Part shown: positions 845-16,141 of the stretch, one piece after another
Position numbering within the stretch: the stretch's first letter is position 1
Layout: every line of letters starts with the position of its first letter
DNA from: Gemmatimonadaceae bacterium
Lineage (GTDB): Bacteria; Gemmatimonadota; Gemmatimonadetes; Gemmatimonadales; Gemmatimonadaceae
Direction of reading: 5' to 3'
Assembly (NCBI GenBank): GCA_025451425.1
Contig: JANWKK010000290.1
Coordinates: forward strand, 1 to 18,302
Length of the DNA: 18,302 nt
The notes under the pieces: model-generated
The model's database searches: none
Seen by the model: the letters and a program-made list of their open reading frames with translations, nothing else
Told to the model about the DNA's origin: nothing
Position numbers and translations under genes: made by a program

Positions 845-1121
845 GGGGTGGGCCTCCGAAGCGGGTCCGTTGCGTGAGCAGCCACTAAACTTCGCGTGGG
901 CCACTGGCGGTGGGCCGCGACCCAGCCGGGTTGCGGGTGCAAGAAATGATCCTTCGGTCGCCCCGAGCAACGGGTTTCGATATGTTTCGTGCAGAGAACG
1001 ACGTCCTCGACAGCCGCGCGCCCTGCCCAACGAGAACCGATCGCACCATATTCGGCGCCGCACAGCGCGCGAACGTGCGCTCGCCTAACGACTAACGCCG
1101 ATCATCCGGAGAATCGCTCGC
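845..1121. other. Divergent intergenic region between the DUF4142 and DUF1080 genes
   Basis: This 277-bp spacer must carry promoters for both flanking genes, but I see no convincing -35/-10 pair. It contains one exact copy of the enriched octamer GCCTAACG (1083-1090), directly before ACTAACG. Just before the DUF1080 start, GGAGA (1108-1112) serves as ribosome binding site. Confidence 0.5.
853..857 (-). promoter_or_regulatory. Shine-Dalgarno GGAGG for the DUF4142 gene
   Basis: The plus-strand CCTCC reads GGAGG on the coding strand, 8 nt upstream of the ATG at 842-844. It decides this start against the longer frame beginning at 1063. Confidence 0.75.
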
Positions 1122-2081
1122 ATGCTACGACACAGCGTGACGCTCCTCACCGTCCTTGTTTCGTCGTCATCCGCAATCAGGGCGAGAACGAGCCTCGCAT
1201 CGACCGCTGACAACGCACTCATCGGCCGCTGGGACATCACGATCCAGACTCCGGGTGGAGAGCGACCCTCATGGCTCGAGCTCGAGCCCTCTGGTCGCGG
1301 CATTATCGTCGGTCGGTTCGTGGGGATCGTTGGCAGCGCACGGCCGATCTCTCGCGTGACGGTCCAAAGCGACTCCTTCCACTTCGCGATTCCACCCCAG
1401 TGGGAAAATGGCGAGGCCGACCTCGTCGTCGACGGGCGCCTAACGGGCGGCCATCTCGCCGGCAGCATGATCTTCCCGGACGGCAAGCGATTCGAGTGGT
1501 CGGGCGTTCGCGCGCCAGCGATGCGTGGCGAACACGCGCCAGCGTGGGGCACGCCGATCCATCTCATTCATGCGAACGATCTCGGCGGTTGGCACGCAGG
1601 GGGCGGACCGAACAATCAGTGGGTCGTGGTGAACGGCATCCTGCGCAGCCCACACTCCGGCGCGAACATCCAAACCGATCAGGCGTTCGGCGATTTCAAG
1701 TTACACATCGAGTTTCGGTATCCTGCCGGAAGCAATAGTGGTGTCTATCTCCGCGGCCGGCACGAGGTCCAGATCGAGGACGACGAGCAACACTCTTCCC
1801 CCATGGATCGCTTCAGCGGCGTCTATGGCTTCATTGCGCCTAGCGAGATGACCACGAAGGGGCCCAACGAGTGGCAATCGTACGACATCACTCTCGTCGG
1901 ACGGTTCGTGAACGTCGTTGCGAACGGAAAGCGCGTCATCTGCGATCAGGAGATTCCTGGCATCACCGGCGGCGCCATCGATAGCAAAGAAGGCACGCCA
2001 GGCCCGCTACTGCTTCAAGGCGACCACGGCCCGGTCGAGTTTCGCAACATCATACTGACACCTGCGAAGCCGGGGCCTTGA
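1122..2081 (+). CDS. Secreted DUF1080 (3-keto-disaccharide hydrolase-like) protein
   Basis: The protein has 319 residues. A weak signal-peptide-like N-terminus (LLTVLVSSSSA) is followed by a beta-rich N-terminal part (about 30-130). From about residue 145 comes a DUF1080 (PF06439) jelly-roll domain. Typical features are the start LIHANDLGGWHAGG, the FKLHIEFRYPAGSNSGVYLRG strand pair with the family's NSGVYLRG signature, EVQIEDD, then GPNEWQSYDITLVG and a final PVEFRNIIL strand. DUF1080 domains are concanavalin-like folds, found in periplasmic or secreted proteins acting on carbohydrates; some hydrolyse 3-keto-glycosides. The substrate here is unknown. The start is supported by GGAGA 9 nt upstream. 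The 3' end overlaps the convergent hydrolase gene by 32 bp. The octamer GCCTAACG falls inside this gene at 1438-1445. Confidence 0.85.
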   Translation: MLRHSVTLLTVLVSSSSAIRARTSLASTADNALIGRWDITIQTPGGERPSWLELEPSGRGIIVGRFVGIVGSARPISRVTVQSDSFHFAIPPQWENGEADLVVDGRLTGGHLAGSMIFPDGKRFEWSGVRAPAMRGEHAPAWGTPIHLIHANDLGGWHAGGGPNNQWVVVNGILRSPHSGANIQTDQAFGDFKLHIEFRYPAGSNSGVYLRGRHEVQIEDDEQHSSPMDRFSGVYGFIAPSEMTTKGPNEWQSYDITLVGRFVNVVANGKRVICDQEIPGITGGAIDSKEGTPGPLLLQGDHGPVEFRNIILTPAKPGP

Positions 2082-2805
2082 GCGTCTGCTCAAGGAGCGC
2101 CAGCAAGGTGTCCCAGTGGCGCTCGGCGGCGGCTTCGTCGTGCACTGGTGTGTCCGACGGCACCCAACCGTGGCGCGCGTTGTACGTCTCGACCACATGA
2201 TCGACATGCGCCTCGGTGAGTGCATCCTCAAGACGCTGCTTCTGAGCGTCGTCAAAGCCAGGATCCTCGATCGCGCCGGCGACGTAGACGCGCGCTGTCA
2301 TCTCGGGTGCGAGACGATGGGGACTGTCGGGCGCGTCTGTCGCCAGCTGGCTCGCGTGATACGATGCTGACGCAGCGACGCGATCGGGGAAATGCCCCGC
2401 CGCGGCGAGCGAAAACCGTCCGCCGAGGCAGTATCCGGTGGTTCCGATGCGTCCATGACGCACGCTTCGCTGCGCGTCGAGATGCTCGAGCAATGCCGGC
2501 ATGTCGCTCATGATCTTCCCTATGGTTACCGTGGGGAGAACGTGTTTCGACCATTCGGCGCGTATTTCCGGGTCCTTGAACAGATTCGCGCCCTGCGTGA
2601 AGCCGCTCCGGTAATACAAATCAGGAAGGACGACGTAATAGCCGGACGCGGCGAGGCGCTCTCCGATCTCGAAAAGCGCTGGTCGGACGCCAAGCCCATC
2701 CATGAAAACGAGAACGCCCGGCCATGGACCACTGCCGGTAGTCGTGAAGACGTGCGTCGGACAGACGCCGTCGTCGGTCCGAATGTCGATTGTCTGATGC
2801 GGCAT
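2050..2805 (-). CDS. Dienelactone hydrolase family protein
   Basis: This alpha/beta hydrolase has 251 residues from the chosen start. It fits the dienelactone hydrolase family (PF01738): PWPGVLVFMDGLG forms the first strand and oxyanion region, GYYVVLPDLYYR follows, and the nucleophile elbow G-Y-C-L-G-G carries a cysteine (C126), as in classical carboxymethylenebutenolidases. The likely acid is D181 in AGAIEDPG and the histidine H212 in ARHGWVPSD. Length matches the family, and there is no signal peptide, so it is probably cytoplasmic. Many members are generic esterases, so the substrate cannot be read from sequence. I chose the ATG at 2803-2805 because GGAG sits 7 nt upstream; the alternative ATG at 2824-2826 has a poorer site. 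The gene overlaps the convergent DUF1080 gene by 32 bp and may be co-directional with, but separate from, the lipoprotein gene upstream. Confidence 0.88.
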   Translation of the reverse strand: MPHQTIDIRTDDGVCPTHVFTTTGSGPWPGVLVFMDGLGVRPALFEIGERLAASGYYVVLPDLYYRSGFTQGANLFKDPEIRAEWSKHVLPTVTIGKIMSDMPALLEHLDAQRSVRHGRIGTTGYCLGGRFSLAAAGHFPDRVAASASYHASQLATDAPDSPHRLAPEMTARVYVAGAIEDPGFDDAQKQRLEDALTEAHVDHVVETYNARHGWVPSDTPVHDEAAAERHWDTLLALLEQTLKAPASQVSV

Positions 2806-2812
2806 GGTGTGG

Positions 2813-2816
2813 CTCC
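2813..2816 (-). promoter_or_regulatory. Shine-Dalgarno GGAG deciding the hydrolase start
   Basis: Plus-strand CTCC reads GGAG on the coding strand, 7 nt before the ATG at 2803-2805. It favours the 251-residue product over the 258-residue form. Confidence 0.6.
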
Positions 2817-2856
2817 GAAAGGGCATCCGCTCTACGCCGAGGGCCAGGCACCCGTT

Positions 2857-2884
2857 GGGGCTAGGGGCAAGGGGCTAGGGGCTA
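2857..2884 (+). repeat. (GGGGCTA)n tandem heptamer with G-quadruplex motif
   Basis: Four tandem heptamers run GGGGCTA, GGGGCAA, GGGGCTA, GGGGCTA. That gives four G4 runs separated by 3-nt loops, a textbook G-quadruplex pattern on the plus strand. The last heptamer (2878-2884) also pairs with TAGCCCC (2897-2903) across 12 nt, forming a hairpin that reaches the stop codon of the lipoprotein gene. The tract lies between two minus-strand genes, so their RNA would be C-rich here. Confidence 0.75.
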
Positions 2885-2902
2885 GGCCCGAGTCCATAGC
2901 CC

Positions 2903-4291
2903 CTACGGAAACTCCCGCAGCTGCGGCAGCGCTACGGGCGCAACGAGCGCTGCCTTTGCTGGCGCCGCGATCGTGCTGAAAAGATCGACGCGCAAACGCC
3001 GCTGCACGGCCGAGTGCCACGAGTAGTTGCTGCCGTCGAATCGCGCTCCGGAGTACCAGATCGTCACGGCGTCCGACGACGGATCGTAGGCGAAGCTCGA
3101 TCGATAGACGACATCGCGCAGCTCATCGATCGCGCCGCGTGCGAGCACAGGCGAGGGGTACGTCGTCCAGTGCACGCCGTCGGTGCTCGTCGCGAGATAC
3201 ACGGCGCTCGTGGTGCACGAGCCGGCGGTCTTCACATTGTAGAGCGCCCAGAATTCGTTGCGACTCGGGATCCACTCGACGTCGATGTGCCAGGGCGAAA
3301 ACCCCGGTTGCGTGAGCGCGACCGTCTCCGGTACCGACCAATCGACGCCGTTGATGGAGCGCCGGAGCTCGACCGCCGCCGAGCTGCCCGTGCAACCAGC
3401 ATTTCCATTCACTGCCCACATCAGCCAGTCGTTAGGTGTCCGCCGAACGACTGACGGTGAGATGATCTCATGGTTCGGCGCGTGTGTCACATCGATCGGC
3501 GTCGTCCAAGCGACGCCATCGCGCGACGTCGTTAGGCGAATCGTATTCTCATTCGTGACCTGGCGGAAGTACAGCCAAACCTCGTTCCGTTCGGGGACGA
3601 ACACCGCGTCCGGATCCGAGAGGTAGCCGTCGTGTGGCGATTCGATCGGGTTCGTCACATTATCGGGCACGAGCCACCGTGTCGGCTGCTCGCTCTCGAA
3701 GATCGATGGATTCTCGAAGTTGGCGTTGCCGTTCGGATAGGGTGTGATGAACAAATACTGACCAGCGTGCGTCCACTCCGGCCCTGTCGCCACGTAGTCC
3801 GGATGCACGGTCTGGCCCGAGCCGTCGTACGTCTTGAGGTCGAGCGGCACAATGACGTCGAGTGGCAGCTCAGCGTTGACGTCCGCCGACGCCGTGAGCT
3901 CCGCGGTGAGAAAGCCAGTCGCGACCGCGCGTCCGCGATGCATCGGGCCCGGGCCCAGGGTCCACGTCGCCGAGGCGAAGCCATTGGCGTCAGTGATGCT
4001 TTCCGGCGGGTCCATCACACCGCCATCGTCGGCGATCCACGTGACGTGCACGCCCCCGACGGGCGCACCGAACCCATCACGCACGACGAGCACGATCGGT
4101 TGATCGAGACGCAAACCCGGCGAGCCACGTTGAGCATTTCCTGAAGAGATCGCGATCTTGCCGCGTGAGCGTGGCATGGTCGTACGCTCGCCGCCACAAG
4201 CGAACATACCCCATAACGCCAGGAGCCAGCAGGCATACTCGAGATACGTGCGCAATCGCCGGTGCCTGCGCACCGAATAAGAGAACAGCAT
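2903..4291 (-). CDS. Lipoprotein with Ig-like domain and beta-propeller (GH43/sialidase-like fold)
   Basis: The protein has 462 residues. A basic N-terminus (RRHRRLR) and hydrophobic stretch end in a lipobox-like GMFAC, giving a lipidated C32. Residues about 55-135 resemble a bacterial Ig-like domain: PIVLVVRDGFGAPVGGVHVTW, then DANGFASATWTLGP. The rest (about 150-440) shows repeated propeller-blade signatures: TTSRDGVAWTTPIDV, RRSINGVDWSVPETV and ATSTDGVHWTTYPSPV, i.e. S-x-D/N-G-V-x-W repeats as in sialidase-like and GH43/GH32-type propellers. I cannot assign catalytic residues, so it may bind or cleave glycans or do neither. The start is the first ATG giving a full signal sequence; its ribosome binding site is weak. 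It is divergent from the CBM9/DUF5916 gene, and the two may be regulated from the shared 182-bp spacer. One octamer copy (3530-3537) lies inside. Confidence 0.72.
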   Translation of the reverse strand: MLFSYSVRRHRRLRTYLEYACWLLALWGMFACGGERTTMPRSRGKIAISSGNAQRGSPGLRLDQPIVLVVRDGFGAPVGGVHVTWIADDGGVMDPPESITDANGFASATWTLGPGPMHRGRAVATGFLTAELTASADVNAELPLDVIVPLDLKTYDGSGQTVHPDYVATGPEWTHAGQYLFITPYPNGNANFENPSIFESEQPTRWLVPDNVTNPIESPHDGYLSDPDAVFVPERNEVWLYFRQVTNENTIRLTTSRDGVAWTTPIDVTHAPNHEIISPSVVRRTPNDWLMWAVNGNAGCTGSSAAVELRRSINGVDWSVPETVALTQPGFSPWHIDVEWIPSRNEFWALYNVKTAGSCTTSAVYLATSTDGVHWTTYPSPVLARGAIDELRDVVYRSSFAYDPSSDAVTIWYSGARFDGSNYSWHSAVQRRLRVDLFSTIAAPAKAALVAPVALPQLREFP

Positions 4292-4364
4292 ACAAATTCG
4301 ATGTGAGAGTCAATCGCGCCTTCATATGCTCTACTCATCTGTACCGTCGCCGCGTCACCGTCTC

Positions 4365-4390
4365 ACGAAACGCGAGCATCAGCGTTTCGT
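4365..4390. promoter_or_regulatory. Perfect 9-bp inverted repeat, possible operator
   Basis: ACGAAACGC (4365-4373) and GCGTTTCGT (4382-4390) are perfect inverted arms around an 8-nt spacer. The element lies in the divergent spacer between the propeller lipoprotein and the CBM9/DUF5916 gene, 83 nt before the latter's preferred start. Size and spacing suit a dimeric repressor site or a 5'-leader hairpin. No regulator gene is adjacent. Confidence 0.5.
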
Positions 4391-4473: not shown

Positions 4474-7209
4474 ATGCATCGCCATACGCGCTCGTTGCTC
4501 GCCGGGCTCTGCCTGGCCCCAGTTGCCGCTGCTGCTCAGAGCACGAGCAGTACGACGCGGCAGTCCGGTTCGGCGAGGTACGGCCACACGACGGCCGTTC
4601 CCACGGCCGTTGCGACGCGTCGTGAGGGTCGCATCGTACTCGATGGCAAACTCGACGAGCCCGGGTGGCGCGCTGCTACGCCCATCACTGAATTCACGCA
4701 GTTCGACCCTGACGAGGGACGTCCTGCATCACAGCGAACCGAGGTCCGTTTTCTCTTCGACGACGATGCACTGTATGTCGGCGCGAAGATGTACGATTCG
4801 CTCGGGGCCTCCGGCATCACGACACGGCTCGTACGGCGCGACGCGAGCTTCGATTCCGACTATTTGCAACTTGTCATCGATTCGTATCACGATCACCTGA
4901 GCCGCGCGTTCTTCGAGGTCAATCCGTCCGGCTCGCGGGCGGATCGCATCGGCATCGGCAATTCGTGCTGTGACAATTCCTGGGACCCAATCTGGGAGGC
5001 GGCCACACGTATCGACTCCGATGGCTGGACCGCCGAGATTCGCATCCCGTACAGTCAGCTCCGATTCTCGCGCGCCGTCTCGCAAACCTGGGGGTTGGAG
5101 GTGCGTCGCTACATCAAGCGGCGCGAGGAAGAAGACGACTGGTCGTTCTGGCACAAGAATGAAGCGGGCGGCCCGCCGCGCTTCGGCCATCTCGAGGGAC
5201 TCAGGATTCAAAGTTCCTCATCGCACCTCGAGCTGATGCCGTACGCAAGCGCGAAATCGTCGTCGCTCGCCGACAACGCGGGAACGCCCTTCGACACGCA
5301 TGGTCGTCCGGCGATGCGGGGTGGCCTCGATCTTCGCGACAACGTGACGTCGAACCTCACGCTCAACGCGACGATCAACCCCGACTTTGGGCAGGTTGAA
5401 GTTGACCCGGCGGTGCTCAATCTGTCGGCGTTCGAGACGTTCTTCCCGGAAAAGCGGCCGTTCTTCGTCGAGAACTCGCAGGTGTTCGACTTCGGGCTCT
5501 TCAACTGCAACTTCTGCAGTAACGTCGAGGGAATGCAGGGCTTCTATTCACGCCGCGTCGGGCGCGCGCCGACGGGTGCCGACCTCGCCTCCCAGAACTA
5601 TCCCTATGCCGACATTCCCGACGCCACCACTATTCTTGGCGCCGGCAAGGTTACCGGCCGTACCGCGAGCGGATTTACGGTCGGGTTGCTCGACGCGCTC
5701 ACCGGTCAGGCGAATGCACGCATCGTCTTCCCGAACGGCAGCCGCGGGTCACAGGAGGTCGAGCCGCTGGCGAACTACTTCGTCGGGCGCCTCAAGCGCG
5801 ACTTCCTCCACGGCAATCTCGTCGTCGGAGGCATGCTGTCGGGTGTCGCGCGAAACATCGATACGACTTTCGCGCCGCGACTCGCCCGCAACGCCGAGAT
5901 GTATGGAAACGACGTCGTGTATCGCTGGGCAGACAATGAGTTTTCGCTCATGGCCAATGCGGCGATCACCAACGTGTCGGGCGATCCGAGAGAGATTGCG
6001 CTTCGCCAGCAGTCGAGCGCGCGCTACTTTCAGCGTCCGGATCGCGGGGCGGGGTCGGGCGGATTCTTCTCCAGCCACTACGACACCACGGCGACGAACC
6101 TGCGCGGCATCGGCGGCTACGCCCGCATCGCGAAAGAGACTGGCGACTGGATGTGGGAGAGTGCCATCAACACACGGACGCCAGGCTACGAGACCAACGA
6201 TTTCGCCTTCCAGCAGTACGCCGACTACATCTGGTACGATCTCAACATCACTCGCTACTGGTCCAGGCAGACGAAGTGGTACCAGACGTTGTTTGGCCTC
6301 CTCGGCGCGCAAACGCAGCAGAACTACGAGGGCGACCGCACAGCTCTCCAGGTTCACGAGTTCATGAACTTCACGACTCGCCGGTTCTGGAACCTGACGG
6401 AATTCCTAATCGTTAGGCCGAGCGTGATGGACGATAGACAGTTGCGTGGCGGTCCGGTGGTGCGGCAGCCGAGTAGCACGTATGGCGTGATCAACATCCA
6501 AAGCGATTCGCGCCACATGGTCACGTCCACGCTGGACCTCGAGCATTACGCGGATCAGCAAGGTGGCCACGCCGCAACAGTTGCGTTGACAGCGGCGATT
6601 CGGCCCGCGCCGAACGTGAGCTTCTCGTTCGGTCCGTCGTGGAACCCGTCACGCCTTGCCGCTCAGTACGTGACGGCCGTTGGGGATCCGACCGCGACGA
6701 ACTTCTACGGCACCCGCTACGTCGTGTCGTCGCTCAGTCAGCAGACACTCGGCTTCGACACACGTCTGAGCCTCACGTTCTCGCCGCGCATGACACTCGA
6801 GCTCTACATGCAGCCGTTCTTTGCCGCGGCGCACTATTATGACTTCAAGGAGTACGCGGCGCCGCGCACGGCCTTGCTGCGCGTTTATGGACGTGATGTC
6901 GGCACCGAAGCGCAAACCACGGACGCAAACGGTGTGGCCACACAATATACGATCGATCCGGACGGTTCTGGGCCAGCGCGGGCATTCACGTTCGCGAATC
7001 CCGATCTCAACGACCGCTCGCTGCGGGGCAATGCGCTGTTCCGCTGGGAGTATCGACCCGGCTCGGTGTTGTACGTCGCCTGGACCCACTCGCGAGCCGC
7101 CGGTGCGTCGTACGGCAATCTCGAGCTTCAACGTGACATGGACGCCATCCTTGCTTCTCGCCCTGATAACATTTTTCTCATCAAGGCGAGTTGGTGGCTG
7201 CCAATGTGA
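4474..7209 (+). CDS. CBM9-like / DUF5916 outer-membrane beta-barrel protein
   Basis: The protein has 911 residues from the chosen start. A signal peptide (MHRHTRS, then LLAGLCLAPVAAAA) is followed by a CBM9-like domain (PF06452, about 45-220) with the hallmark RIVLDGKLDEPGWRAA, EVRFLFDDDALYVGAKMYD and a WTAEIRIPYSQLRF strand. A DUF5916 region (PF19313) follows: NLTLNATINPDFGQVEVDPA and FFPEKRPFFVENSQVF are very typical. The C-terminal half is rich in alternating aromatic/polar strands and ends in a hydrophobic-aromatic strand, IFLIKASWWLPM, as expected for an outer-membrane barrel. Such proteins are common in Gemmatimonadota, Acidobacteriota and Bacteroidota; their substrate is not established, although CBM9-like folds bind sugars. 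An upstream in-frame ATG (4432) would add 14 residues; I prefer 4474 because the signal peptide then starts normally. The 3' end stops 2 bp short of the convergent cupin gene. Confidence 0.85.
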   Translation: MHRHTRSLLAGLCLAPVAAAAQSTSSTTRQSGSARYGHTTAVPTAVATRREGRIVLDGKLDEPGWRAATPITEFTQFDPDEGRPASQRTEVRFLFDDDALYVGAKMYDSLGASGITTRLVRRDASFDSDYLQLVIDSYHDHLSRAFFEVNPSGSRADRIGIGNSCCDNSWDPIWEAATRIDSDGWTAEIRIPYSQLRFSRAVSQTWGLEVRRYIKRREEEDDWSFWHKNEAGGPPRFGHLEGLRIQSSSSHLELMPYASAKSSSLADNAGTPFDTHGRPAMRGGLDLRDNVTSNLTLNATINPDFGQVEVDPAVLNLSAFETFFPEKRPFFVENSQVFDFGLFNCNFCSNVEGMQGFYSRRVGRAPTGADLASQNYPYADIPDATTILGAGKVTGRTASGFTVGLLDALTGQANARIVFPNGSRGSQEVEPLANYFVGRLKRDFLHGNLVVGGMLSGVARNIDTTFAPRLARNAEMYGNDVVYRWADNEFSLMANAAITNVSGDPREIALRQQSSARYFQRPDRGAGSGGFFSSHYDTTATNLRGIGGYARIAKETGDWMWESAINTRTPGYETNDFAFQQYADYIWYDLNITRYWSRQTKWYQTLFGLLGAQTQQNYEGDRTALQVHEFMNFTTRRFWNLTEFLIVRPSVMDDRQLRGGPVVRQPSSTYGVINIQSDSRHMVTSTLDLEHYADQQGGHAATVALTAAIRPAPNVSFSFGPSWNPSRLAAQYVTAVGDPTATNFYGTRYVVSSLSQQTLGFDTRLSLTFSPRMTLELYMQPFFAAAHYYDFKEYAAPRTALLRVYGRDVGTEAQTTDANGVATQYTIDPDGSGPARAFTFANPDLNDRSLRGNALFRWEYRPGSVLYVAWTHSRAAGASYGNLELQRDMDAILASRPDNIFLIKASWWLPM

Positions 7210-7211
7210 GC

Positions 7212-7685
7212 CTAACGCGGCTCTTTGTGAATCGAATCGATCCAGAGCACCGTTTCGGGCGATTCGACGACGGGAATATCGAGATTGACGACGACTGCCT
7301 CCTGATCGCTGCGCACGAGTACGCACTCCAGCGGCTCGTCCGCCGCGGCGTTGATCTCCTGGTGCGGCACATACGGCGGCACGAAGATAAAGTCGCCCGG
7401 ACCTGCTTCGGCGACGTATTCCAGCCGGTCGCCCCAACGCATGCGCGCGCGGCCGCGCACGATGTAGATCACGCTCTCGAGCGCGCCGTGATGGTGCGCG
7501 CCCGTCTTCGCGTTAGGCCTGATCGTCACCGTGCCCGCCCAAATCTTCGTCGCCCCGGTCCGGGCGTGCGTGATGGCTGCGGCGCGCGTCATTCCAGGCG
7601 TTTGCGGCGTGTTCAGATCCAGCTCGTCACTGTGCACGATACGCACGCCATGACTGCGCCAGTCGGGACTCGTTCCGGGTTCCAT
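7212..7685 (-). CDS. Single-domain cupin protein
   Basis: This is a small cupin, 157 residues from the chosen ATG. Motif 1 is GAHHHGALESVIYIVRG, giving candidate metal ligands in the HHH group plus the glutamate. Motif 2 is GDFIFVPPYVPHQEIN, giving the last histidine ligand. The core matches cupin_2 (PF07883). Many such proteins bind Fe, Mn or Zn and serve as dioxygenases, isomerases or ligand sensors; this one is not assignable further. The start is uncertain: in-frame ATGs lie at 7743-7745 and 7797-7799, but the longer forms run into the divergent decarboxylase gene, and no start has a good ribosome binding site. The C-terminus ends 2 bp from the CBM9/DUF5916 stop. Coding-strand GCCTAACG occurs at 7511-7518, read as R-P-N-A. 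Confidence 0.8.
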   Translation of the reverse strand: MEPGTSPDWRSHGVRIVHSDELDLNTPQTPGMTRAAAITHARTGATKIWAGTVTIRPNAKTGAHHHGALESVIYIVRGRARMRWGDRLEYVAEAGPGDFIFVPPYVPHQEINAAADEPLECVLVRSDQEAVVVNLDIPVVESPETVLWIDSIHKEPR

Positions 7686-7748: not shown

Positions 7749-9206
7749 ATGTCCGACTCCAACCTCTATCGCGCACCACTCGACCGCGCCGTCGCACACG
7801 CGAAGTCATATCTCGATAGCCTCGATACAGCGCCCGTATCGGCAACGGCGTCGCTCGACGAATTGCGTACGCGCTTCACGCGACCTCTCACCGACGCGGG
7901 CGTACCGGCCGAGCGCGTGATCGACGACTTGGCGAAAGACGCGGAGGGGGGACTCATCGGCAGCGCCGGCGGGCGATTCTTCGCCTGGGTGATCGGCGGC
8001 AGCCTCCCTGCGGCTCTCGCCGCCGATTGGCTCACCTCCACGTGGGATCAGAACGCTGGCATCTACGCGTGCAGTCCGGCAGCCGGCGTCGTCGAAGAGG
8101 TGGCTGGTAGCTACCTCAAGGACCTACTCGGCCTCCCGGCCCGCGCGAGCTTCGCGTTCGTGACCGGTACGCAGATGGCGCACGTGATCTGTCTCGCGGC
8201 GGCGCGACATGGCTTGCTCGCGCGACGGGGATGGAACGTCGAGCAACGCGGCCTAACGAGAGCGCCCGAAGTTCGCATCATCGTCGGCGCCGAGCGCCAC
8301 GGCACGGTCGACCGTGCGGTGCGATTGCTCGGCCTGGGAAGCGACAACATTCAACCGCTGCCGCTCGACGATCACAATGGCATGGACGTCGACGCGTTGA
8401 GCGCTGCCTTGCGCGAAGGCGCCGACCGTCCAACCATCGTCGTGCTCCAGGCGGGTGAGCTGAATACGGGCTCGTTCGACCGGTTTAGTGAGTTGATACC
8501 GGCGGCCCACGCACGTAGTGCGGGGGTTCATATAGACGGGGCCTTCGGCCTGTGGGCCGCGGCGAGCCCGAGCCATCGCCACTTCATGAAGGACGCCGCG
8601 CTCGCTGACTCGTGGTCGACGGACGGCCACAAATGGCTGAACGTTCCGTACGACAGCGGCTACGCCTTCGTCGCCGATGCCGAAGCGCATCACGCGTCGA
8701 TGACGCACCGCTCGAGTTACATGATGCACGAGGGCGACGCCCGCGACCAAGTCGACTGGAATCCGGAATGGTCGCGGCGCGCACGCGGACTCGCGACGTA
8801 CGCCGCGATTCGTAGCCTCGGCCGCGACGGCATTTGCGAGTTGATCGATCGTTCTTGTCACCACGCCACCGCGCTCGTGCAGCGCATTGGCGGGCTGCCG
8901 GGCGCGGAGGTGATGTGGGAACCGCTCATCAACCAGGGCCTCGTACGCTTCCGCGACGAGCGGCCGAAGGCGAGTGAGTCAGATCACGACGCGCGCACCG
9001 ACAGCGTGATCAACGAGATTCTTTCGGCTGGTGTGGCCTTCTTTGGCGGCGTTGCCTGGCGCGGCCGACGGTGCATGCGTGTGTCCGTCTCGAGCTGGCA
9101 GACCACGGACCGAGACGTCGAACGCACGGTGGACGCGGTTGGGCACGCCATGCAGGCGGCAGCGCACAAGTCCTCGCCCGCTCGAGCGCCCTCCCTCGCG
9201 CGTTGA
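7749..9206 (+). CDS. PLP-dependent group II decarboxylase family protein
   Basis: The 485-residue protein fits the pyridoxal-dependent decarboxylase family (PF00282, fold type I; aromatic-amino-acid/glutamate decarboxylase group). The PLP-binding lysine is K295 in STDGHKWLNVPYDSG, and the aspartate that pairs with the pyridine nitrogen is D263 in VHIDGAFGLWAA. The N-terminal part contains SPAAGVVEEVAGSYLKDLLGL, typical of the substrate-cofactor region, and FVTGTQMAH, a phosphate-binding-like loop. The C-terminus has the usual small domain (RRCMRVSVSSWQTT). The exact amino-acid substrate, or whether it is a lyase or transaminase-like paralogue, cannot be told. I start at 7749 because the open frame further upstream (from 7191) translates antisense cupin sequence. 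No strong ribosome binding site is visible. It is divergent from the cupin gene with only 63 bp between starts. Confidence 0.87.
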   Translation: MSDSNLYRAPLDRAVAHAKSYLDSLDTAPVSATASLDELRTRFTRPLTDAGVPAERVIDDLAKDAEGGLIGSAGGRFFAWVIGGSLPAALAADWLTSTWDQNAGIYACSPAAGVVEEVAGSYLKDLLGLPARASFAFVTGTQMAHVICLAAARHGLLARRGWNVEQRGLTRAPEVRIIVGAERHGTVDRAVRLLGLGSDNIQPLPLDDHNGMDVDALSAALREGADRPTIVVLQAGELNTGSFDRFSELIPAAHARSAGVHIDGAFGLWAAASPSHRHFMKDAALADSWSTDGHKWLNVPYDSGYAFVADAEAHHASMTHRSSYMMHEGDARDQVDWNPEWSRRARGLATYAAIRSLGRDGICELIDRSCHHATALVQRIGGLPGAEVMWEPLINQGLVRFRDERPKASESDHDARTDSVINEILSAGVAFFGGVAWRGRRCMRVSVSSWQTTDRDVERTVDAVGHAMQAAAHKSSPARAPSLAR

Positions 9207-9250: not shown

Positions 9251-9321
9251 ATTGCTTGTCGCGTTTGCTGGCGCCAGTTTAGGTCGCTCCCGAACTCGCT
9301 AATCGGCTCGTCCAGCAGGCG

Positions 9322-11478
9322 ATGACTGACATCCGCAGGAGCGCCGGTACTAGAGGAGGCGCGGGAACGCTCCCACTCGCGTTGGGCCTTGCTTTGTTCG
9401 CTCCGATCGCGCTTCTGGGCAACGAAGCCGGAGCGCTGCTCCGCTATCCCGACATCGGCAGCGCAGTGCTTTTTCCGCCGTACGCGGCGCTGACGGCCGT
9501 CCTCGTTGCCTCGCCTCGGCGTCACTGGCTCTGGTACATTCTCGTCGGCCACGTCGCGCACCTCGCTACGAATTGGCCGCAGTGGACGTTCACGTGGGTT
9601 CTGTTTGCTGATGTGGCAAACATTGCCCGCGCCCTGACGGCGGCGCTCCTGCTTCAATGGCTGTTCGACGGCCGGCCGAAGTTCGAGGGCCTCGACGCGC
9701 TCGCCCGTTTCGTTCTCAGCGCAGTACTCGTGGCCCCTGCCGTCGGAGCAACCATTGGCGCGGCAGATGTCGTTCTGCATGGAGCGACATCCACGTTCGG
9801 GGCGGCATGGCGCGCGTGGTTCATGGGCAACGCGCTCACCGGCCTAACGATGATGCCGGCGTTCGTGCTCGGGGCATCGCGGATTGCGCACTGGCGCCCG
9901 AATCGAATGAGCCGGCGGCGCAGCGCCGAGACGATCGGCCTCGGCTTGACAGTCGCGGCGACGTGCGTCCTTGCCGCCGTGGTGCATGGTACGACGAAAT
10001 GGCAGCTGTTGCTGAGCTTCTACGCGCCGCTTCCGGTATTGCTCTGGGCGGCACTCCGCTTCTCCGCCATCGAGACGAGTCTCGCACTTACCGCCGTGAC
10101 CTTCGCGGCCGTCATCGGCGCCGATCGCAACATCGGCCCGTTTTTCGGCTCGTCCCCGGACGAGAGCGTGTTGGTGGTACAGCTCTTCGTTGTTCTCACG
10201 AGCTTCACGATCCTTTGTATCGTCGCAATGAGTACTGCGCGGCGTGCTGTTATCCGCTTGCATCGGGCGGTGCTCGCTTCGGCGCGCGACCGCATCGCCA
10301 TCCTCGACTCGCGCGGGGCGGTGCTCGAGGCCAACGATTCGTGGCGACGGTTCGCCGAGACTAATGACGTGGCTTCTTTTCATCGGACCCTGGCTGGTCA
10401 GAACTATCCGGCCGCGTGCGCTGTCGCCGCGGAACGTGGAGACGCTATCGCGTCGCGGGTGCTCGAGGGCGTGACCGGTGTGCTCGATCAGACGGAGAAT
10501 CGCTTCGAGATGGAGTACGACGACGTTCACCACGACAGTCCCGAGCGATACGCGCTTCGCGTCGAGACCCTGCAGCACCCGGACGGTGGCGTCGTCGTCA
10601 GACACACCAACGTAACGGCGCGCCATCGGGCGCAAATCGAGCTCGAGGAGCAGCGGCGTCAGCTCTCGCACCTCGCGCGCGTTGCATCGTTAGGCCAGCT
10701 ATCTGGCGCGCTCGCCCACGAGCTGAATCAGCCGCTAGCGTCGATCGGCAGTAACGCCGAAGCGGCGCGCCACCTCCTCAAGCGGGGCGCGGGAGATACG
10801 CAGCTCCTCGACGAAATTCTGGGTGACATCATCACCGAGAACTATCGCGCGGCCGAGGTCATTCGGCGCCTTCGCGCGCTGCTGCGTCGCGGTGAAACAC
10901 GTCTTCAGCCGCTCAACACGGCCGAGCTGATCGCCGAGGTGCTCGAGCTGGCGCACGCGGAGCTGATCACGCGCCGCGTCACCGCGACGTCGCTCATTGC
11001 GCCGAATCTTCCACCCGTATTAGGCGATCGCGTTCAGCTTCAGCAAGTCCTGCTCAACCTGATCCTCAACGCCTGTGAATCCATGCGTGTGACGCCGCTG
11101 CGCGAGCGACAACTCTGGGTCGTCGCAAACGTCGTTGGCAGCAGCACGCAGATCTCGATTCGCGACTTCGGCACTGGCATTCCTCCGGCGCTCATCGGTC
11201 GATTGTTCGAGCCGTTCTTTACCACAAAGGCTGAGGGACTCGGTCTCGGGCTTTCGATCTCGCGAACGATCGTCGCCGCACATGGCGGGCGACTCTGGGC
11301 CGAGAACAATCCTGATGGGGGTGCCACCCTTTACTGCGTGCTCACGACGGCGCCCGTCGACGCAGCAGTTCCTGCAGCGCAATTGGGCGACCACAAAGCA
11401 TCAGCGACGAACGAATTGCCAGTGGCCACCTCCCTGGTCGCGCCAGCATCGTCGACGTTGGGCACACCTTCTTTGTGA
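9322..11478 (+). CDS. MASE1-PAS sensor histidine kinase
   Basis: The kinase has 718 residues. Residues about 15-310 are a multi-span membrane domain matching MASE1 (PF05231): PDIGSAVLFPPYAALTAVLV and the helix pairs around WPQWTFTWVLF. A PAS-like segment follows (about 320-440: RIAILDSRGAVLEANDSWRR). The HisKA dimerisation helix reads GQLSGALAHELNQPLASIGS, with phospho-acceptor H466. The HATPase domain has N583 (LILNACESM), D615 (RDFGTGIPP) and GLGLGLSISRTIVAAHGG. The kinase core resembles the FixL/DctB group. A Pro/Ala/Thr-rich tail of about 50 residues follows the catalytic domain. It probably autophosphorylates in response to a ligand sensed in the membrane and passes phosphate to the receiver gene it overlaps by 4 bp. 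The ATG at 9322 has only a weak, close AGG upstream. Octamer copies lie at 9842 and 10688. Confidence 0.9.
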   Translation: MTDIRRSAGTRGGAGTLPLALGLALFAPIALLGNEAGALLRYPDIGSAVLFPPYAALTAVLVASPRRHWLWYILVGHVAHLATNWPQWTFTWVLFADVANIARALTAALLLQWLFDGRPKFEGLDALARFVLSAVLVAPAVGATIGAADVVLHGATSTFGAAWRAWFMGNALTGLTMMPAFVLGASRIAHWRPNRMSRRRSAETIGLGLTVAATCVLAAVVHGTTKWQLLLSFYAPLPVLLWAALRFSAIETSLALTAVTFAAVIGADRNIGPFFGSSPDESVLVVQLFVVLTSFTILCIVAMSTARRAVIRLHRAVLASARDRIAILDSRGAVLEANDSWRRFAETNDVASFHRTLAGQNYPAACAVAAERGDAIASRVLEGVTGVLDQTENRFEMEYDDVHHDSPERYALRVETLQHPDGGVVVRHTNVTARHRAQIELEEQRRQLSHLARVASLGQLSGALAHELNQPLASIGSNAEAARHLLKRGAGDTQLLDEILGDIITENYRAAEVIRRLRALLRRGETRLQPLNTAELIAEVLELAHAELITRRVTATSLIAPNLPPVLGDRVQLQQVLLNLILNACESMRVTPLRERQLWVVANVVGSSTQISIRDFGTGIPPALIGRLFEPFFTTKAEGLGLGLSISRTIVAAHGGRLWAENNPDGGATLYCVLTTAPVDAAVPAAQLGDHKASATNELPVATSLVAPASSTLGTPSL

Positions 11479-11858: not shown

Positions 11859-12631
11859 GGTCCGTGTTTGCGCCAAACGGCAATCACGGCGCACGGGCTA
11901 CCGCCGGAGGTAAACTCAGCCGGAATGTTGACGGACGATGTGTAGACCTCAATAGCTTGTATCTCGCTCGGAGGCAGAGTCTCCAGGAAGGAGTTCATCT
12001 GACGGGGATCCTTTGGATCCTTGGAGGTCTCGTGGTTGGTCAATCGCTGGCCGTCGAACCACACCTCCGCATACTCGCCTCCGAAAACTGGATTGCCATA
12101 GCATCTGTTGAAGTAGACGCCATCCTGGTCGACAAAGACGCCATTGATGCCCTCGAACATCGTCTTGACGTCCTTGGGCCCAACCGAATCGATCTGCTCG
12201 CGCGTGATGAATGTTCCCCATCCTCGCGCGCCGCGTTCGTAGACCGCCTCGTAGCCATGCGGCACACGGAAGGCTCGACCGTGAACGACGAGCTCCGATA
12301 ACAGCTGCGGCATCCGCTTCAAGTAGATGTCGAGCCGTATGGAGTCGCCTGTGACGAAGAGCACCGTATCCTTGACCGGCGAATACCTGAAGAACCGCAC
12401 CTCGATCTCGCGACGACCCGTAGGGATGCTGGACAAGCGAAAGCGTCCACGCCCGTCGGACCGAGCGACCAGGTTGGTGCCCACGATCTGGATCCCGGCA
12501 TTCGCGACGCCGCCGCTGTCGGTTGCGTCGAGAATCCGCCCGACGAGCGTTGCGGAGCTATTCCGTTGCCCTTGCGCGACCAGGACATTGGTCAGCGCGA
12601 CACATATTCCCGCGAGCAGCGTGACACGCAT
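11855..12631 (-). CDS. Secreted carboxypeptidase-regulatory plus TonB-plug-like protein without barrel
   Basis: This 258-residue protein has a signal peptide (MRVTLLAGICVALTNVLVAQG). A carboxypeptidase-regulatory-like beta-sandwich (about 27-110) follows: LVGRILDATDSGGVANAGIQ, GRFRLSSIPTGRREIEVRF. A segment resembling a TonB-dependent receptor plug comes next (about 112-258): LSELVVHGRA, ITREQIDSVGPKDVKTMFEG, EVWFDGQRLT and PPSEIQAIEVYTS. It ends just where a receptor would begin its 22-strand barrel, with a proper TAA stop. Short proteins of this type occur in Gemmatimonadota, where they may be periplasmic or surface-attached; their role is not known. Two cysteines (in FNRCYGNP and GGSPCAV) could form a disulfide. 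GGAG 6 nt upstream supports the start. The stop overlaps the regulator stop on the other strand. Confidence 0.75.
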   Translation of the reverse strand: MRVTLLAGICVALTNVLVAQGQRNSSATLVGRILDATDSGGVANAGIQIVGTNLVARSDGRGRFRLSSIPTGRREIEVRFFRYSPVKDTVLFVTGDSIRLDIYLKRMPQLLSELVVHGRAFRVPHGYEAVYERGARGWGTFITREQIDSVGPKDVKTMFEGINGVFVDQDGVYFNRCYGNPVFGGEYAEVWFDGQRLTNHETSKDPKDPRQMNSFLETLPPSEIQAIEVYTSSVNIPAEFTSGGSPCAVIAVWRKHGP

Positions 12632-12637
12632 TCGAGG

Positions 12638-12641
12638 CTCC
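12638..12641 (-). promoter_or_regulatory. Shine-Dalgarno GGAG for the plug-like protein
   Basis: Plus-strand CTCC reads GGAG on the coding strand, 6 nt upstream of the ATG at 12629-12631, and confirms the start. Confidence 0.6.
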
Positions 12642-12689
12642 GCAGTTGCTAGTGGAGTGTAATGGAGATAATGATGGCAAGTGTTAAGA

Positions 12690-12827
12690 GGCCGCTGATA
12701 CCAGAGACACGACGCTGAGGCCGCTGACGTAAGAGCGTTGTCATCCTGAGGAGCCCTTCGCTTCGCTCAGGATGACAAGAGACAGCAATTGTCAGCGGTT
12801 TCAGCGCAGTGTCAGCGGCTTCAGCGG
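12690..12827. repeat. Composite palindrome around a GTCATCCTGAG hairpin, copy B
   Basis: The core is GTCATCCTGAG (12740-12750) pairing with CTCAGGATGAC (12766-12776), an 11-bp stem whose loop carries GAGCCCTTCGCTTCG. The flanks are also inverted: CCGCTGA occurs at 12692-12698 and 12721-12727 on the left, and TCAGCGG at 12792-12798, 12812-12818 and 12821-12827 on the right. The core is related to the repeat at 131-163. No transposase is encoded, so it may be a non-autonomous element or a structured regulatory sequence. Confidence 0.65.
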
Positions 12828-12976
12828 CCCTATCCAATTTTGATATACAAGGCTGCGTGCCTGCTTTCACCATCTCAATTACATCCCACTAGCATCAACT
12901 TACTGCCGCCGCCTGAAGACACAAACGATGATGAACGATATCGTATCTCCGGGAATTGAGGGTTGTTCAGCATACT

Positions 12977-13000
12977 GTGATCTCCTCGTTAGAGGATCAC
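12977..13000 (+). other. Small bulged hairpin overlapping a GAGGA
   Basis: GTGATCTCCTC (12977-12987) can pair with GAGGATCAC (12992-13000), with a 2-nt bulge and a GTTA loop. The right arm contains GAGGA, 5 nt before the ATG at 13002. If that small frame is translated the hairpin would hide its ribosome binding site; otherwise it is a short structured spacer. Confidence 0.35.
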
Positions 13001-13073
13001 AATGGGCGACGCGGATGCAAGGAGGCAATGTGCGTACGACCGTCGCAATACGGCAGTCGCCCTGATTAGTTGG

Positions 13074-13157
13074 CAGGCGACCGGCGCATTTCGCCACACG
13101 ACCGGGGCTTCACCCGACACGACCGGGACTTCGCCCGAGACGACCGCGATTTCTGCG
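13074..13157. repeat. Four copies of a 21-nt degenerate tandem repeat
   Basis: Units begin at 13074, 13095, 13116 and 13137, each carrying the core CGACCG followed by GGC/GGG and TTC. The best pair, GACACGACCGGGACTTCGCCC and its left neighbour, differ at only a few positions. Because the period is 21 nt, every open frame through it gives a 7-residue repeat: xTTGxSP-like on the plus strand, xAPVVSG-like on the minus strand. It lies about 30 bp past the 3' end of the LuxR-type regulator gene. Confidence 0.7.
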
Positions 13158-13188
13158 TGCACAACGCGCGACCGGTGGACCACGATAT

Positions 13189-13845
13189 CTAACGCGTGGT
13201 GTCCTCGACGGGATACTCGAGGAGGCCGTGCTCTGCTGAATAGCGCACTAGATCGGCGTTTGTGGCGAATCCCATCTTCTCCATGAGCCGCGTGCGATAC
13301 GTGCTCACAGTCTTCGGCGACAAGCCCAGCGCCTCCGCGACCTCCTTCACCGTGCGGCCGGTTCCGAGCCCACGCAGTACGTCGAACTCGCGGTCGGAGA
13401 GTTGCTCGTGCGGTGCGCCCACGAAATCCTGTCCGAGCTGCGCGGCGAGTTTCTCAGCGAGCATCGGACTCACGTAGCGGCCGCCACGATGCACCCTCCG
13501 GATCGCATCGAGTAATTGCTCGGGAGAATGGTCCTTCGTTAGGTACCCCGATGCGCCTCCGCGCAGTGCGCGGACGGCCCACTGATCTTCCGGGTGCGCG
13601 CTGAGCACGAGCACACGCACCGTGGGATGCGTCTCACGCAGTCGTCGCAGGGTATCCGTGAACGGCGATCCGGGCATCGAGACGTCGAGCAATACGACGT
13701 CCGCGACGTGCTGCTGGAGCGCGAGCAGCGCGGCCTCGCCACTCGCCGCCTCGGCGGTGACGACGATACCGCGATCGTCCTCGGCGATTCGGCGCAGGCC
13801 GGCACGAACGATCGGATGATCGTCGACGATCAGGACGCGAATCAC
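13189..13845 (-). CDS. NarL/FixJ-family response regulator with LuxR-type HTH
   Basis: This 218-residue DNA-binding response regulator has a receiver domain at about 1-118 with D8/D9, phospho-acceptor D54 (VVLLDVSMPG), S83 (LVLSAH) and K104 (YLTKDHS). A short linker leads to a LuxR/GerE helix-turn-helix (about 147-205): LSDREFDVLRGLGTGRTVKE, then VAEALGLSPKTVSTYRTRLM. Length and order match NarL/UvrY-type regulators. It starts with GTG inside the stop of the kinase gene (GTGA overlap at 13842-13845), so both are made from one mRNA and should form a cognate pair. The target promoters are unknown. The enriched heptamer variant CGTTAGGT occurs at 13537. Confidence 0.93.
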   Translation of the reverse strand: MIRVLIVDDHPIVRAGLRRIAEDDRGIVVTAEAASGEAALLALQQHVADVVLLDVSMPGSPFTDTLRRLRETHPTVRVLVLSAHPEDQWAVRALRGGASGYLTKDHSPEQLLDAIRRVHRGGRYVSPMLAEKLAAQLGQDFVGAPHEQLSDREFDVLRGLGTGRTVKEVAEALGLSPKTVSTYRTRLMEKMGFATNADLVRYSAEHGLLEYPVEDTTR

Positions 13846-14984
13846 GGCGCAGCCAACTCCGCCTTTGCCGGCGTTGGCGCCGGCGGGAGTGGCAACCGCA
13901 ATGAAACCGTCGTGCCCGATTTGGCTTCACTAAAGACACTGACCGACCCGCCTAACGCGATCGCGCGCTCGCGCAGGCCGAGCAGACCGAGCGAATGCGT
14001 CCCGCGCATCTCGTCACGGGAGATTCCGCGGCCATCGTCGGTGACATCGAGCGAGAGAATCTCTCCCTCGATGCCCAGTGCCACACGCACACGCGATGCC
14101 TCGGCGTGCTTCGCGACGTTCGTGAGCGCTTCCTGCAGCATGCGAAAGACGGCTGACGCGATCGGGCCCGGCGGCGACGAGCCGGAGCAATGGATGTCGA
14201 GCTCCAGCTCCAGCCCGGTGCGGGAGGCAAAGTCCTGTGCCTGCCACTCGATCGCGTCACCCAGACCGAGTTGGTCGAGCACACTCGGCCGAAGCTCGGT
14301 GATGATGCGTCGAACAGCGATCATGACGTCGTCCAGCCGGCCGAGAACACTTGCGCAGCGATCCACGACCTCCGGCTGCGCGTGTCGGCTGAGACGGCGG
14401 TCCATCCACGCGAGATCGAGCTTGAGCCCCGTGAGCGCTTGCCCGAGCTCGTCGTGCAGCTCGCGAGCGATGCGAGTTCGCTCTTCCTCGCGAACCGACT
14501 CGAGCCGCGCAGCAAGCGCCCGCAACTCTTCGCGCGATTGGGCGATCTCCGCCGCGGCGCGGTGTCGATCGGTAATGTCGCGCTGAATGCCAAGATGCCC
14601 GGTGATTCGACCCTTCTCATCATACACGCAGAGGTAGTGGCCTTCGATGCGAACCGGCGTGCCGTCCATGCGTCGCTCGTCTGTCTCCGTGTGGATATGC
14701 CCCGCGTCGAACATGGCACGCCAGCCCGCCTTCCCTCCCTCCATGTCGTGCGCGAAAAACTCCGCCGGTGTCTTTCCGATGAGCTCTGGCAACTGCACAC
14801 GGTATTGTCGTGCATACGCCTCGTTCGCGATCGTCATGCGTTGATGCTGAAATACGTGCTCGAGTATCGCGTCTTTATCAACCGAGTCGTTCCACTCGAT
14901 AGGCTCATCGAGCATCATGATGAAGAACCCATCGATCGATTGCGCGAAGAACAGCTCGCGCAGACTGTCGGGAGAAAGGGACAC
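13842..14984 (-). CDS. Soluble PAS-domain histidine kinase, HisKA_3 type
   Basis: This 380-residue kinase has no membrane segment. An N-terminal PAS domain (about 10-138) carries IANEAYARQYRV, RRMDGTPVRIEGHYLCVYDE and a C-terminal GHLGIQRDITDRH. A coiled coil follows (about 140-168). The HisKA_3 dimerisation box EEERTRIARELHDELGQAL has phospho-acceptor H177. The HATPase domain has an N-box EALTNVAKHAEASRV, a G1 box DDGRGIS and GLLGLRERA. This is the NarX/DegS-type kinase class that pairs with NarL-type regulators, and the regulator follows with a 4-bp overlap. The PAS domain may bind a small ligand or cofactor in the cytoplasm; nothing identifies it. Translation starts at GTG (14982-14984) with only a weak upstream GGA. 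The gene is divergent from the alpha/beta hydrolase at 15215. Confidence 0.93.
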   Translation of the reverse strand: MSLSPDSLRELFFAQSIDGFFIMMLDEPIEWNDSVDKDAILEHVFQHQRMTIANEAYARQYRVQLPELIGKTPAEFFAHDMEGGKAGWRAMFDAGHIHTETDERRMDGTPVRIEGHYLCVYDEKGRITGHLGIQRDITDRHRAAAEIAQSREELRALAARLESVREEERTRIARELHDELGQALTGLKLDLAWMDRRLSRHAQPEVVDRCASVLGRLDDVMIAVRRIITELRPSVLDQLGLGDAIEWQAQDFASRTGLELELDIHCSGSSPPGPIASAVFRMLQEALTNVAKHAEASRVRVALGIEGEILSLDVTDDGRGISRDEMRGTHSLGLLGLRERAIALGGSVSVFSEAKSGTTVSLRLPLPPAPTPAKAELAAP

Positions 14985-15051
14985 GAGAAGTCCGTCGCGC
15001 AGTATGGCTGGTTAGGCGACTCGAGAAGAAGCGGCGCACGACGTGGTGCGC

Positions 15052-15112
15052 TGTAGGACAACTGACTACGAGAGGCGCCCGTGCGCCAGAGGTTGTCAGC
15101 GTGCGTCCTACA
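15052..15112. promoter_or_regulatory. Nested three-stem palindromic element in the divergent spacer
   Basis: Three nested pairings share one centre: TGTAGGAC (15052-15059) with GTCCTACA (15105-15112), CTGAC (15062-15066) with GTCAG (15095-15099), and GGCGC (15074-15078) with GCGCC (15083-15087) around a CCGT tetraloop. It lies between the starts of the PAS kinase (-) and the alpha/beta hydrolase (+). It could be a structured RNA leader, a palindromic repeat or a binding region for a regulator, possibly the adjacent LuxR-type one. That last idea is a guess. Confidence 0.4.
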
Positions 15113-15214
15113 CGTGTGTTCCCGCCCGTCGTACAGATCGCGCCTTACGTCGCCGATTCGTGAGGCTCAGGTGGCCGGCTAGCCTCCACGCCATCCCACC
15201 ACACCAAAACGCCA

Positions 15215-16141
15215 ATGTCGATTCTTCCACTCACGATCGCGCATAATGACGACCGCCTCGAGACGCTCGTCGTCGATGGCCGCCAGATCGCATATCAAGA
15301 TGTTGGCGGCGGCCCAACGATCATTCTCGCTCACTGCTCCGGCGCGTCACATCGGATCTGGACGCCGTCTGTTGAGTGTCTTCGCAGTCGTTATCGCGTC
15401 GTCGCACCAGACCTACTCGGTTACGGCCAGTCGGAGCGATGGCCGATCAATGCTCGGCTGCACCCGTGGTCGGACTTGAGCGCGCTCGTCGCGCTCGCGG
15501 AAGGATCGAGGGAGCCGGTTCACCTCGTCGGCCACTCGTACGGCGGCACGGTTGCGCTCGAGGCAGCGCGCGTTCTTGGCGCGCGCGTGAAGAGCCTAAC
15601 GTTGATCGAGCCGATCGCTTTCCATCTGCTGCGACTCACTGGACGAATGCAGGAGTGGCAAGAGCTCAGCGACGTCGGACGCGAGATGATGGAAGCTCTC
15701 CGACTCCGCCGGGAGCGCGGCGCAGCCGGCGTTTACATGAAGTACTGGGTCGGCCGGCTACGATGGTGGTCGATGAGTCCGAGGGCTCGACGTCGAGTAC
15801 TGCTCACCGTGGGAAAAGTGGGCGCCGAGTTCGAAGCGGTTTCGGGGCTTTCCACTACCGCCGCTGATTATCGAGCTGTCAACACGCCAACTCGTCTCGT
15901 CGTCGGCGAGCGAACGCGCCAGCCCGCACGCGCCATCGTCGATGAGCTACTCGACCTTTTGCCGAACTCGCACCTTCAGGTGATACCAGGCGCGGGACAC
16001 ATGAGTCCTTTGACACATCCTGACGCCGTCGCGAGGCTTGTTTCGCGGCACGTCGAGCATGTCGAAGCGAGCCTCGGCCGAATGAAGCCGACGACGTTGC
16101 AAGCCGCGCAGGCTCGTCCAAAGCGACGATCGATCGCGTGA
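15215..16141 (+). CDS. Alpha/beta hydrolase fold protein
   Basis: The protein has 308 residues. Strand-loop TIILAHCSGASHRIW carries the oxyanion region, RVVAPDLLGYGQSERW follows, and the nucleophile elbow VGHSYGG has S108. The likely histidine is H262 in IPGAGHMSPL. After the sixth strand, where family members usually show an aspartate, this protein has LVVGERTRQPARA, leaving only E232 close by, so the acid is unusual or lies elsewhere. Residues 145-215 form a basic cap region (ALRLRRERGAA, RLRWWSMSPRARRRV). There is no signal peptide. The family covers esterases, haloperoxidases and C-C hydrolases, so the substrate is unknown. The ATG at 15215 has no clear ribosome binding site. The C-terminal tail is rich in Lys/Arg and may be disordered. 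A 7-bp inverted repeat (16154-16160 with 16184-16190) follows the stop. Confidence 0.85.
   Translation: MSILPLTIAHNDDRLETLVVDGRQIAYQDVGGGPTIILAHCSGASHRIWTPSVECLRSRYRVVAPDLLGYGQSERWPINARLHPWSDLSALVALAEGSREPVHLVGHSYGGTVALEAARVLGARVKSLTLIEPIAFHLLRLTGRMQEWQELSDVGREMMEALRLRRERGAAGVYMKYWVGRLRWWSMSPRARRRVLLTVGKVGAEFEAVSGLSTTAADYRAVNTPTRLVVGERTRQPARAIVDELLDLLPNSHLQVIPGAGHMSPLTHPDAVARLVSRHVEHVEASLGRMKPTTLQAAQARPKRRSIA

Follow-up and report, generated by a model that had tools for sequence, protein, structure and literature searches.

The window analysed here is the whole of an 18,302-nucleotide (18.3-kb) stretch of DNA from a Gemmatimonadaceae bacterium (assembly GCA_025451425.1, contig JANWKK010000290.1, positions 1 to 18,302 of the forward strand). 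Its genes match the Pfam families DUF4142, 3-keto-disaccharide hydrolase, dienelactone hydrolase, DUF5916, cupin and decarboxylase, along with kinases, regulators and hydrolases; no family of DNA uptake or DNA modification appears among the Pfam names for these genes, and an Rfam search of the window returned no match. Dispersed through the genes and their junctions is the octamer GCCTAACG, the subject of this analysis, which a preliminary description of the window had singled out as over-represented. The 11 exact copies that it had located were all recovered at the same positions, seven on the plus strand and four on the minus strand. They are listed below with the open reading frame (ORF) in which they lie, the frame in which they are read, and their state in G246, a relative whose genome is collinear with most of the window.

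Copy 1, 1083..1090, plus strand: intergenic, upstream of the 3-keto-disaccharide hydrolase ORF (1122); not alignable to G246.
Copy 2, 1438..1445, plus strand: 3-keto-disaccharide hydrolase ORF, read CTA-ACG; intact in G246.
Copy 3, 3530..3537, minus strand: Big_1-like ORF, read CTA-ACG; two changes in G246.
Copy 4, 6411..6418, minus strand: DUF5916 ORF, read GTT-AGG; intact in G246, two changes in G001 (locus L001).
Copy 5, 7210..7217, plus strand: convergent boundary between the DUF5916 and cupin ORFs; intact in G246.
Copy 6, 7511..7518, minus strand: cupin ORF, read CCT-AAC; one change in G246.
Copy 7, 8251..8258, plus strand: PLP-dependent decarboxylase ORF, read CTA-ACG; intact in G246.
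Copy 8, 9842..9849, plus strand: MASE1 sensor kinase ORF, read CTA-ACG; no such stretch in the syntenic part of G246.
Copy 9, 10688..10695, minus strand: MASE1 sensor kinase ORF, read TTA-GGC; no such stretch in the syntenic part of G246.
Copy 10, 13950..13957, plus strand: PAS histidine kinase ORF, read TTA-GGC; intact in G246.
Copy 11, 15594..15601, plus strand: alpha/beta hydrolase ORF, read CTA-ACG; intact in G246.

Chance would be expected to produce less than one such copy, as had been estimated: 200 dinucleotide shuffles of the window gave a mean of 0.35 and a largest value of 2, and none of the 200 reached 11. Five of the six 7-of-8 variants that the preliminary description had listed were correctly placed, the sixth beginning at 17414 instead of 17415; the list was not complete, the window containing 26 single-mismatch octamers vs. 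a mean of 13.4 (standard deviation 3.6, maximum 22) in 100 first-order Markov simulations. The reading frames had been assigned correctly, with CTA-ACG at five sites, TTA-GGC at two, CCT-AAC at one and GTT-AGG at one, while two copies lie at gene boundaries; the use of at least four frames, the non-coding copies and the rare codons bear out the view that a protein motif is not the cause.

Nor is the enrichment limited to this window, the outcome that had been set against the idea of a DNA-level signal, since relatives are enriched genome-wide. The DUF5916 protein of the window is 74% identical to that of locus L001 in G001, a metagenome-assembled Gemmatimonas sp. genome of 4.7 Mb which contains 2940 copies of the octamer (1464 + 1476 on the two strands), the reversed octamer that served as control occurring 269 times (149 + 120). 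In fragmented assemblies such strand totals are uninformative on the replication strand, because contig orientation is arbitrary. Four other loci match the DUF5916 protein, three of them named Gemmatimonadetes or Gemmatimonadaceae and one Ignavibacteriae; the genomes G002-G005 contain 11-50 copies each. Among 395 Gemmatimonadota genomes, 24 are enriched, meaning that a table read by eye gave them more than 100 copies and more copies than the reversed-octamer control. Two others, G041 (181 copies) and G125 (172 copies), exceed 100 but stay below that control, and the remaining genomes, here called plain, have fewer than 100. Octamer density in the enriched genomes of this count is about 100-970 per Mb, with the exception of G190 (49 per Mb). 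The cultured Gemmatirosa kalamazoonensis (G084) has 4469 copies, and 26 of the 179 genomes in its family are enriched, scattered over several blocks of the genome listing, the other 153 having at most 70 copies each. The samples of Gemmatirosa contain 155 copies in 280 kb of the chromosome, 56 in 60 kb of the 1.1-Mb plasmid (a 1,106,233-bp contig, 5 kb of which is 100% identical to plasmid NZ_CP007129.1) and 17 in 20 kb of a 21-kb contig. In an rpoB tree of 25 genomes, in which enriched genomes were over-sampled and G002 was left out for its partial match, the genomes with more than 100 copies per Mb are split over two deep clades, plain genomes lying in between, and need at least three changes of state.

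These counts bear on the simplest alternative, that the octamer is an artefact of composition, codon usage or a protein motif. The preponderance of coding copies and of TTA-GGC among the frames might suggest an artefact, but besides the variety of frames, the non-coding copies and the rare codons, the reversed octamer is far rarer and plain relatives of similar G+C are without the octamer. We give this explanation practically no credence: the window shuffles, the reversed-octamer counts and the plain family members together refute it.

The octamer also heads the list of 8-mers in the window, where it is tied with the overlapping word CCTAACGA, and in samples of G361 (104 kb), G204 (88 kb), G001 (124 kb) and Gemmatirosa (340 kb). 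In these five it stands 28- to 52-fold above the expectation of an order-2 Markov model, fitted to the window and to the samples of 88-340 kb. In a filtered 8-mer list it comes first in G033, G160, G249, G106, G137 and G159, and second in G370 and G113 (there behind an overlapping word); in a 45-kb sample of G190 it is not in the top list. The plain genomes G163, G174, G029 and G139 (74-100 kb each) show neither the octamer nor an obvious replacement word, and short loci of G003 and G004 likewise show no replacement word. Small shifts resembling dialects occur among the enriched genomes: G361 and G204 are less strict at position 8, A is also found at position 8 in G249 and at position 1 in G106, and both G001 and the window favour A after the octamer. 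Bases beyond the core carry little information, and the octamer is therefore no part of a longer dispersed repeat. Separately, the G001 samples (L049-L055) contain a second over-represented string around CTGATAACTATGGACT, with 10-mers present in 7-10 copies in 124 kb, which is probably a repeat.

Comparison of relatives indicates that the word itself is maintained. G246 shares 76-79% DNA identity with the window (78.5% where aligned), and 6 of the 8 alignable copies are intact there (three could not be aligned) vs. 17.1% for 999 composition-matched octamers (binomial 5e-4); the sole copy alignable to L001 is not intact. Copies of G204 are intact at 13 of 16 sites in G365 vs. 48-49% of controls (binomial 9e-3), at 14 of 21 in G418 vs. 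25-28% (3e-4) and at 11 of 15 in G361 vs. 22-24% (7e-5), three comparisons that are not independent because all use G204. In the reverse direction, the copies in aligned pieces of G365, G418 and G361 are intact in G204 in 20 of 28, 17 of 23 and 18 of 36 cases, respectively. When 60 copies from four comparisons are pooled, identity is 93.3% within the octamer, 79.2% in the 10 bp flanking it on each side and 82.7% in the background; the least-kept base of the octamer, T at position 4, is retained in 80%. The proposal of a signal at the DNA level is thus strongly supported, the octamer being genome-wide in relatives, present in several frames and conserved within weakly constrained flanks, and we regard it as virtually certain that a real, conserved, genome-wide DNA word exists in a subset of Gemmatimonadota.

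The alignment with G246 brought out other features of the window. The region ~9168-13210 (about 4 kb), containing genes for a sensor kinase and a response regulator as well as a carboxypeptidase-regulatory-like gene and enclosing two exact copies of the octamer, has no counterpart in the stretch of G246 that is elsewhere collinear with the window. Short intergenic segments at 131-165 and 12739-12777 recur many times, at 93-100% identity, across G001, G246 and further relatives and are dispersed intergenic repeats, the second with an inverted repeat visible around CATCCTGAG...CTCAGGATG; the intergenic segments 12791-12830 and 13052-13153 have many matches of 76-95% in G246, the first also in G393.

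The majority of copies lie within genes, in stop-free frames, and antisense copies read as TTA-GGC are the most common, the coding fractions being approximate since genes were called with a simple script. Because most copies are genic and this frame is the commonest, 181 of the 234 TTA codons in the Gemmatirosa samples fall inside the octamer; in five other enriched genomes it holds 22-49 of 50-113 TTA codons. Per 1000 codons, TTA occurs 0-0.27 times in plain genomes vs. 1.1-3.6 times in enriched ones. A preference for intergenic DNA is inconsistent across genomes. Uncalled bases, 9% of the Gemmatirosa sample, are touched by 77 of 380 copies, an excess (51 by midpoint alone); the corresponding figures are 3 of 90 copies in 9% for G361, 9 of 77 in 11% for G001 and 3 of 11 in 19% for the window. 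G204 was dropped from this comparison because 35% of its bases were uncalled, which we read as poor gene calling. Close inverted pairs are few, amounting to 3 of 16 close pairs in Gemmatirosa and none of two in G361, while the sole close pair in G001 is inverted.

Could the copies be scattered integron attC sites? GCCTAAC/GTTAGGC fits the attC core consensus, an integron-type integrase scored above its cut-off in 35 of the 64 genomes searched (32 enriched and 32 plain), and several plain genomes have octamer clusters on one strand, spaced roughly 0.4-1 kb apart like cassette arrays. Clusters of this sort on G118:C2, G007:C43, G142:C5 and G260:C14, with a spacing of roughly 0.4-2 kb, are probably integron cassette arrays in their own right. 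The integrase, however, is no more frequent where the octamer is enriched (16 of 32 enriched vs. 19 of 32 plain genomes) and none is above cut-off in G361 or G001; unlike attC sites, the copies in enriched genomes are mostly genic, few form inverted pairs, and the enriched samples contain neither paired sites nor arrays. An integron origin for the octamer in enriched genomes is consequently highly implausible.

If a protein of recombination, segregation or nucleoid structure bound the octamer, this would account for a word that is genome-wide, conserved and, in Gemmatirosa, spaced slightly more evenly than random (variance 1.72 vs. mean 2.24 per 4 kb). Chi and KOPS are over-represented non-palindromic octamers that follow the replication strand. 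The octamer, unlike them, has no such polarity: in 34 samples of 20 kb from Gemmatirosa (380 copies), the two halves of the chromosome have +96/-118 and +85/-81 copies, with base 1 standing in for the origin, which the weak GC skew did not locate, and neighbouring copies share a strand in 177 of 346 pairs. A mild strand bias in the first 14 samples (+31/-54, +41/-29) faded once 34 were counted. Single loci of G361 are sometimes lopsided (e.g., 10/2 and 6/14), an imbalance that may follow gene direction. The absence of polarity does not touch a strand-neutral nucleoid site, yet we consider binding sites of this general kind improbable as the explanation.

The octamer might also be targeted by restriction-modification or another kind of defence, or mark self DNA for it. 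Its patchy presence would be in keeping with this, and non-palindromic words are typical of some of these systems. An excess of ~50-fold would be unexpected for a modification target. Moreover, the published methylome of Gemmatirosa reports RGATCY, ATGCAC and CCAGN7TCA, adenine motifs that are each methylated at >99% and do not include the octamer; cytosine-5 methylation was not addressed there. We judge a defence mark to be very improbable.

The same methylome argues against a word resembling the cyanobacterial HIP, made or kept by a bias of repair or mutation towards this sequence, perhaps in connection with a DNA modification, and devoid of any role in uptake. HIP1 (GCGATCGC) is likewise an 8-bp word, very frequent and patchy among relatives, of unsettled function and with a repair model proposed, according to the account in PMC4390886. 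The equal density of the octamer on the chromosome, megaplasmid and 21-kb replicon of Gemmatirosa fits a process acting on all resident DNA. HIP, however, is palindromic and linked to methyltransferases, whereas the octamer is neither palindromic nor a reported methylation motif of Gemmatirosa. Furthermore, no one neighbouring word is clearly a depleted precursor, several lying below the model (lowest 0.43) and others being raised up to 6-fold, in a test that is weak in that its expectation is inflated by the octamer itself. Overall, a bias of this type seems unlikely, if still worth bearing in mind.

Of the signal types offered in the preliminary description, an uptake sequence fits best, and Chi-like or strand-polar segregation sites and adenine methylation fit poorly. 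Judging from the genomic pattern, GCCTAACG is probably a lineage-specific DNA uptake sequence, that is, a tag of self DNA, of competent Gemmatimonadota using a type IV pilus/ComEC pathway. Under this proposal, some part of the type IV pilus that binds DNA (probably one of the minor pilins) would prefer DNA bearing the octamer, the pilus would pull the tagged DNA through the secretin, and ComEC and DprA would import one strand and hand it over to recombination. Uptake and recombination would then favour tagged over untagged alleles, and for this reason the tag would spread and be restored wherever the coding sequence tolerates it. What the data show is the extreme genome-wide excess with no bias towards a replication strand, the octamer kept within flanks that are kept less well, and competence and pilus genes in most of the genomes searched; the preference for tagged DNA, its reader protein and the drive are what we infer. 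The patchy presence of the octamer among relatives counts in favour of the proposal. The pathway is at hand: all five enriched loci examined carry a pil operon, and a PilA-like pilin is common to all nine pil loci compared, five from enriched and four from plain genomes, as is a gene run that we take to be PilM-N-O-P-Q. ComEC loci have been linked to recombination in soil bacteria (PMC7305173).

Several observations weigh against an uptake sequence. Profile searches of the 32 enriched and 32 plain genomes do not discriminate between the groups, since ComEC was matched in 26 enriched and 27 plain genomes, DprA in 26 and 29, and a PilQ-like secretin in 30 and 31, none of the latter above the family cut-off. 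Matches to ComP_DUS were weak, in 13 of 32 genomes of each group, and the sole one above cut-off belongs to the plain genome G139; similarly, no gene cluster or pilin pI separates enriched from plain among the nine pil loci. Some octamer-rich metagenome-assembled genomes are without matches (G361 for both ComEC and DprA, G001 for DprA), perhaps a reflection of assembly incompleteness. The uptake pathway is therefore present in most genomes, yet it does not account for which of them carry the octamer. Inverted, terminator-like pairs, common for neisserial uptake sequences, are rare here, even if they are not a functional requirement. The 21-kb replicon of Gemmatirosa, with its 17 copies in 20 kb, is rich in tags, whereas recently acquired DNA should be tag-poor; its size agrees with a high-copy element that its authors call possibly a phage, and the contig (L086, G084:C1) has no match in the plasmid collection. 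No capsid matches, which would have pointed to prophages for comparison, were found in 18 enriched genomes. In the open-licence literature we found no transformation experiment with Gemmatimonadota and no paper joining 'DNA uptake sequence' with Gemmatimonad; the open-licence papers found by wider searches on uptake sequences include none on Gemmatimonadota by title, and among the matches listed for papers containing 'GCCTAACG' none is, by title, about a bacterial genome motif.

How does the octamer compare with established uptake sequences? As far as the available accounts of them go, the DNA uptake sequences (DUS) of Neisseriaceae, read by the minor pilin ComP, are also short non-palindromic words with hundreds to thousands of copies and dialects. 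They too form a conserved word within permissive flanks (PMC2397512), and genomes without an evident DUS likewise occur in the family (PMC3630211). Unlike DUS, the octamer is of unrelated sequence and phylum, has an 8-bp core and few inverted pairs, and its role in uptake is putative; pilin searches found no ComP-like receptor for it. The uptake signal sequences (USS) of Pasteurellaceae are strand-neutral with mostly coding copies, and in both respects the octamer is alike. Their density, 31-913 per Mb in 150 Pasteurellaceae genomes (PMC12616744), spans a similar range, but USS is an unrelated 9-bp word of another phylum, with a receptor that is only predicted.

Uptake sequences are treated as a trait of Neisseriaceae and Pasteurellaceae in PMC7811141 and PMC1939737. 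On balance, Gemmatimonadota probably evolved a self-DNA tag independently of both, as one conserved octamer with small dialect shifts, present in two deep clades and repeatedly gained or lost among close relatives that all have pili and ComEC. If this is true, an uptake-sequence system would exist in free-living soil bacteria, and specificity of uptake could be gained or lost while the machinery itself stays the same. Why bacteria tag their DNA, through selfish drive or through selection for recombination with their own kind, could then be tested on repeated gains and losses in a soil phylum that is abundant, seldom cultured and unrelated to the known cases. Since the machinery is common to enriched and plain sister genomes, the change that creates specificity should be findable by comparing them, with at least one enriched species in culture.

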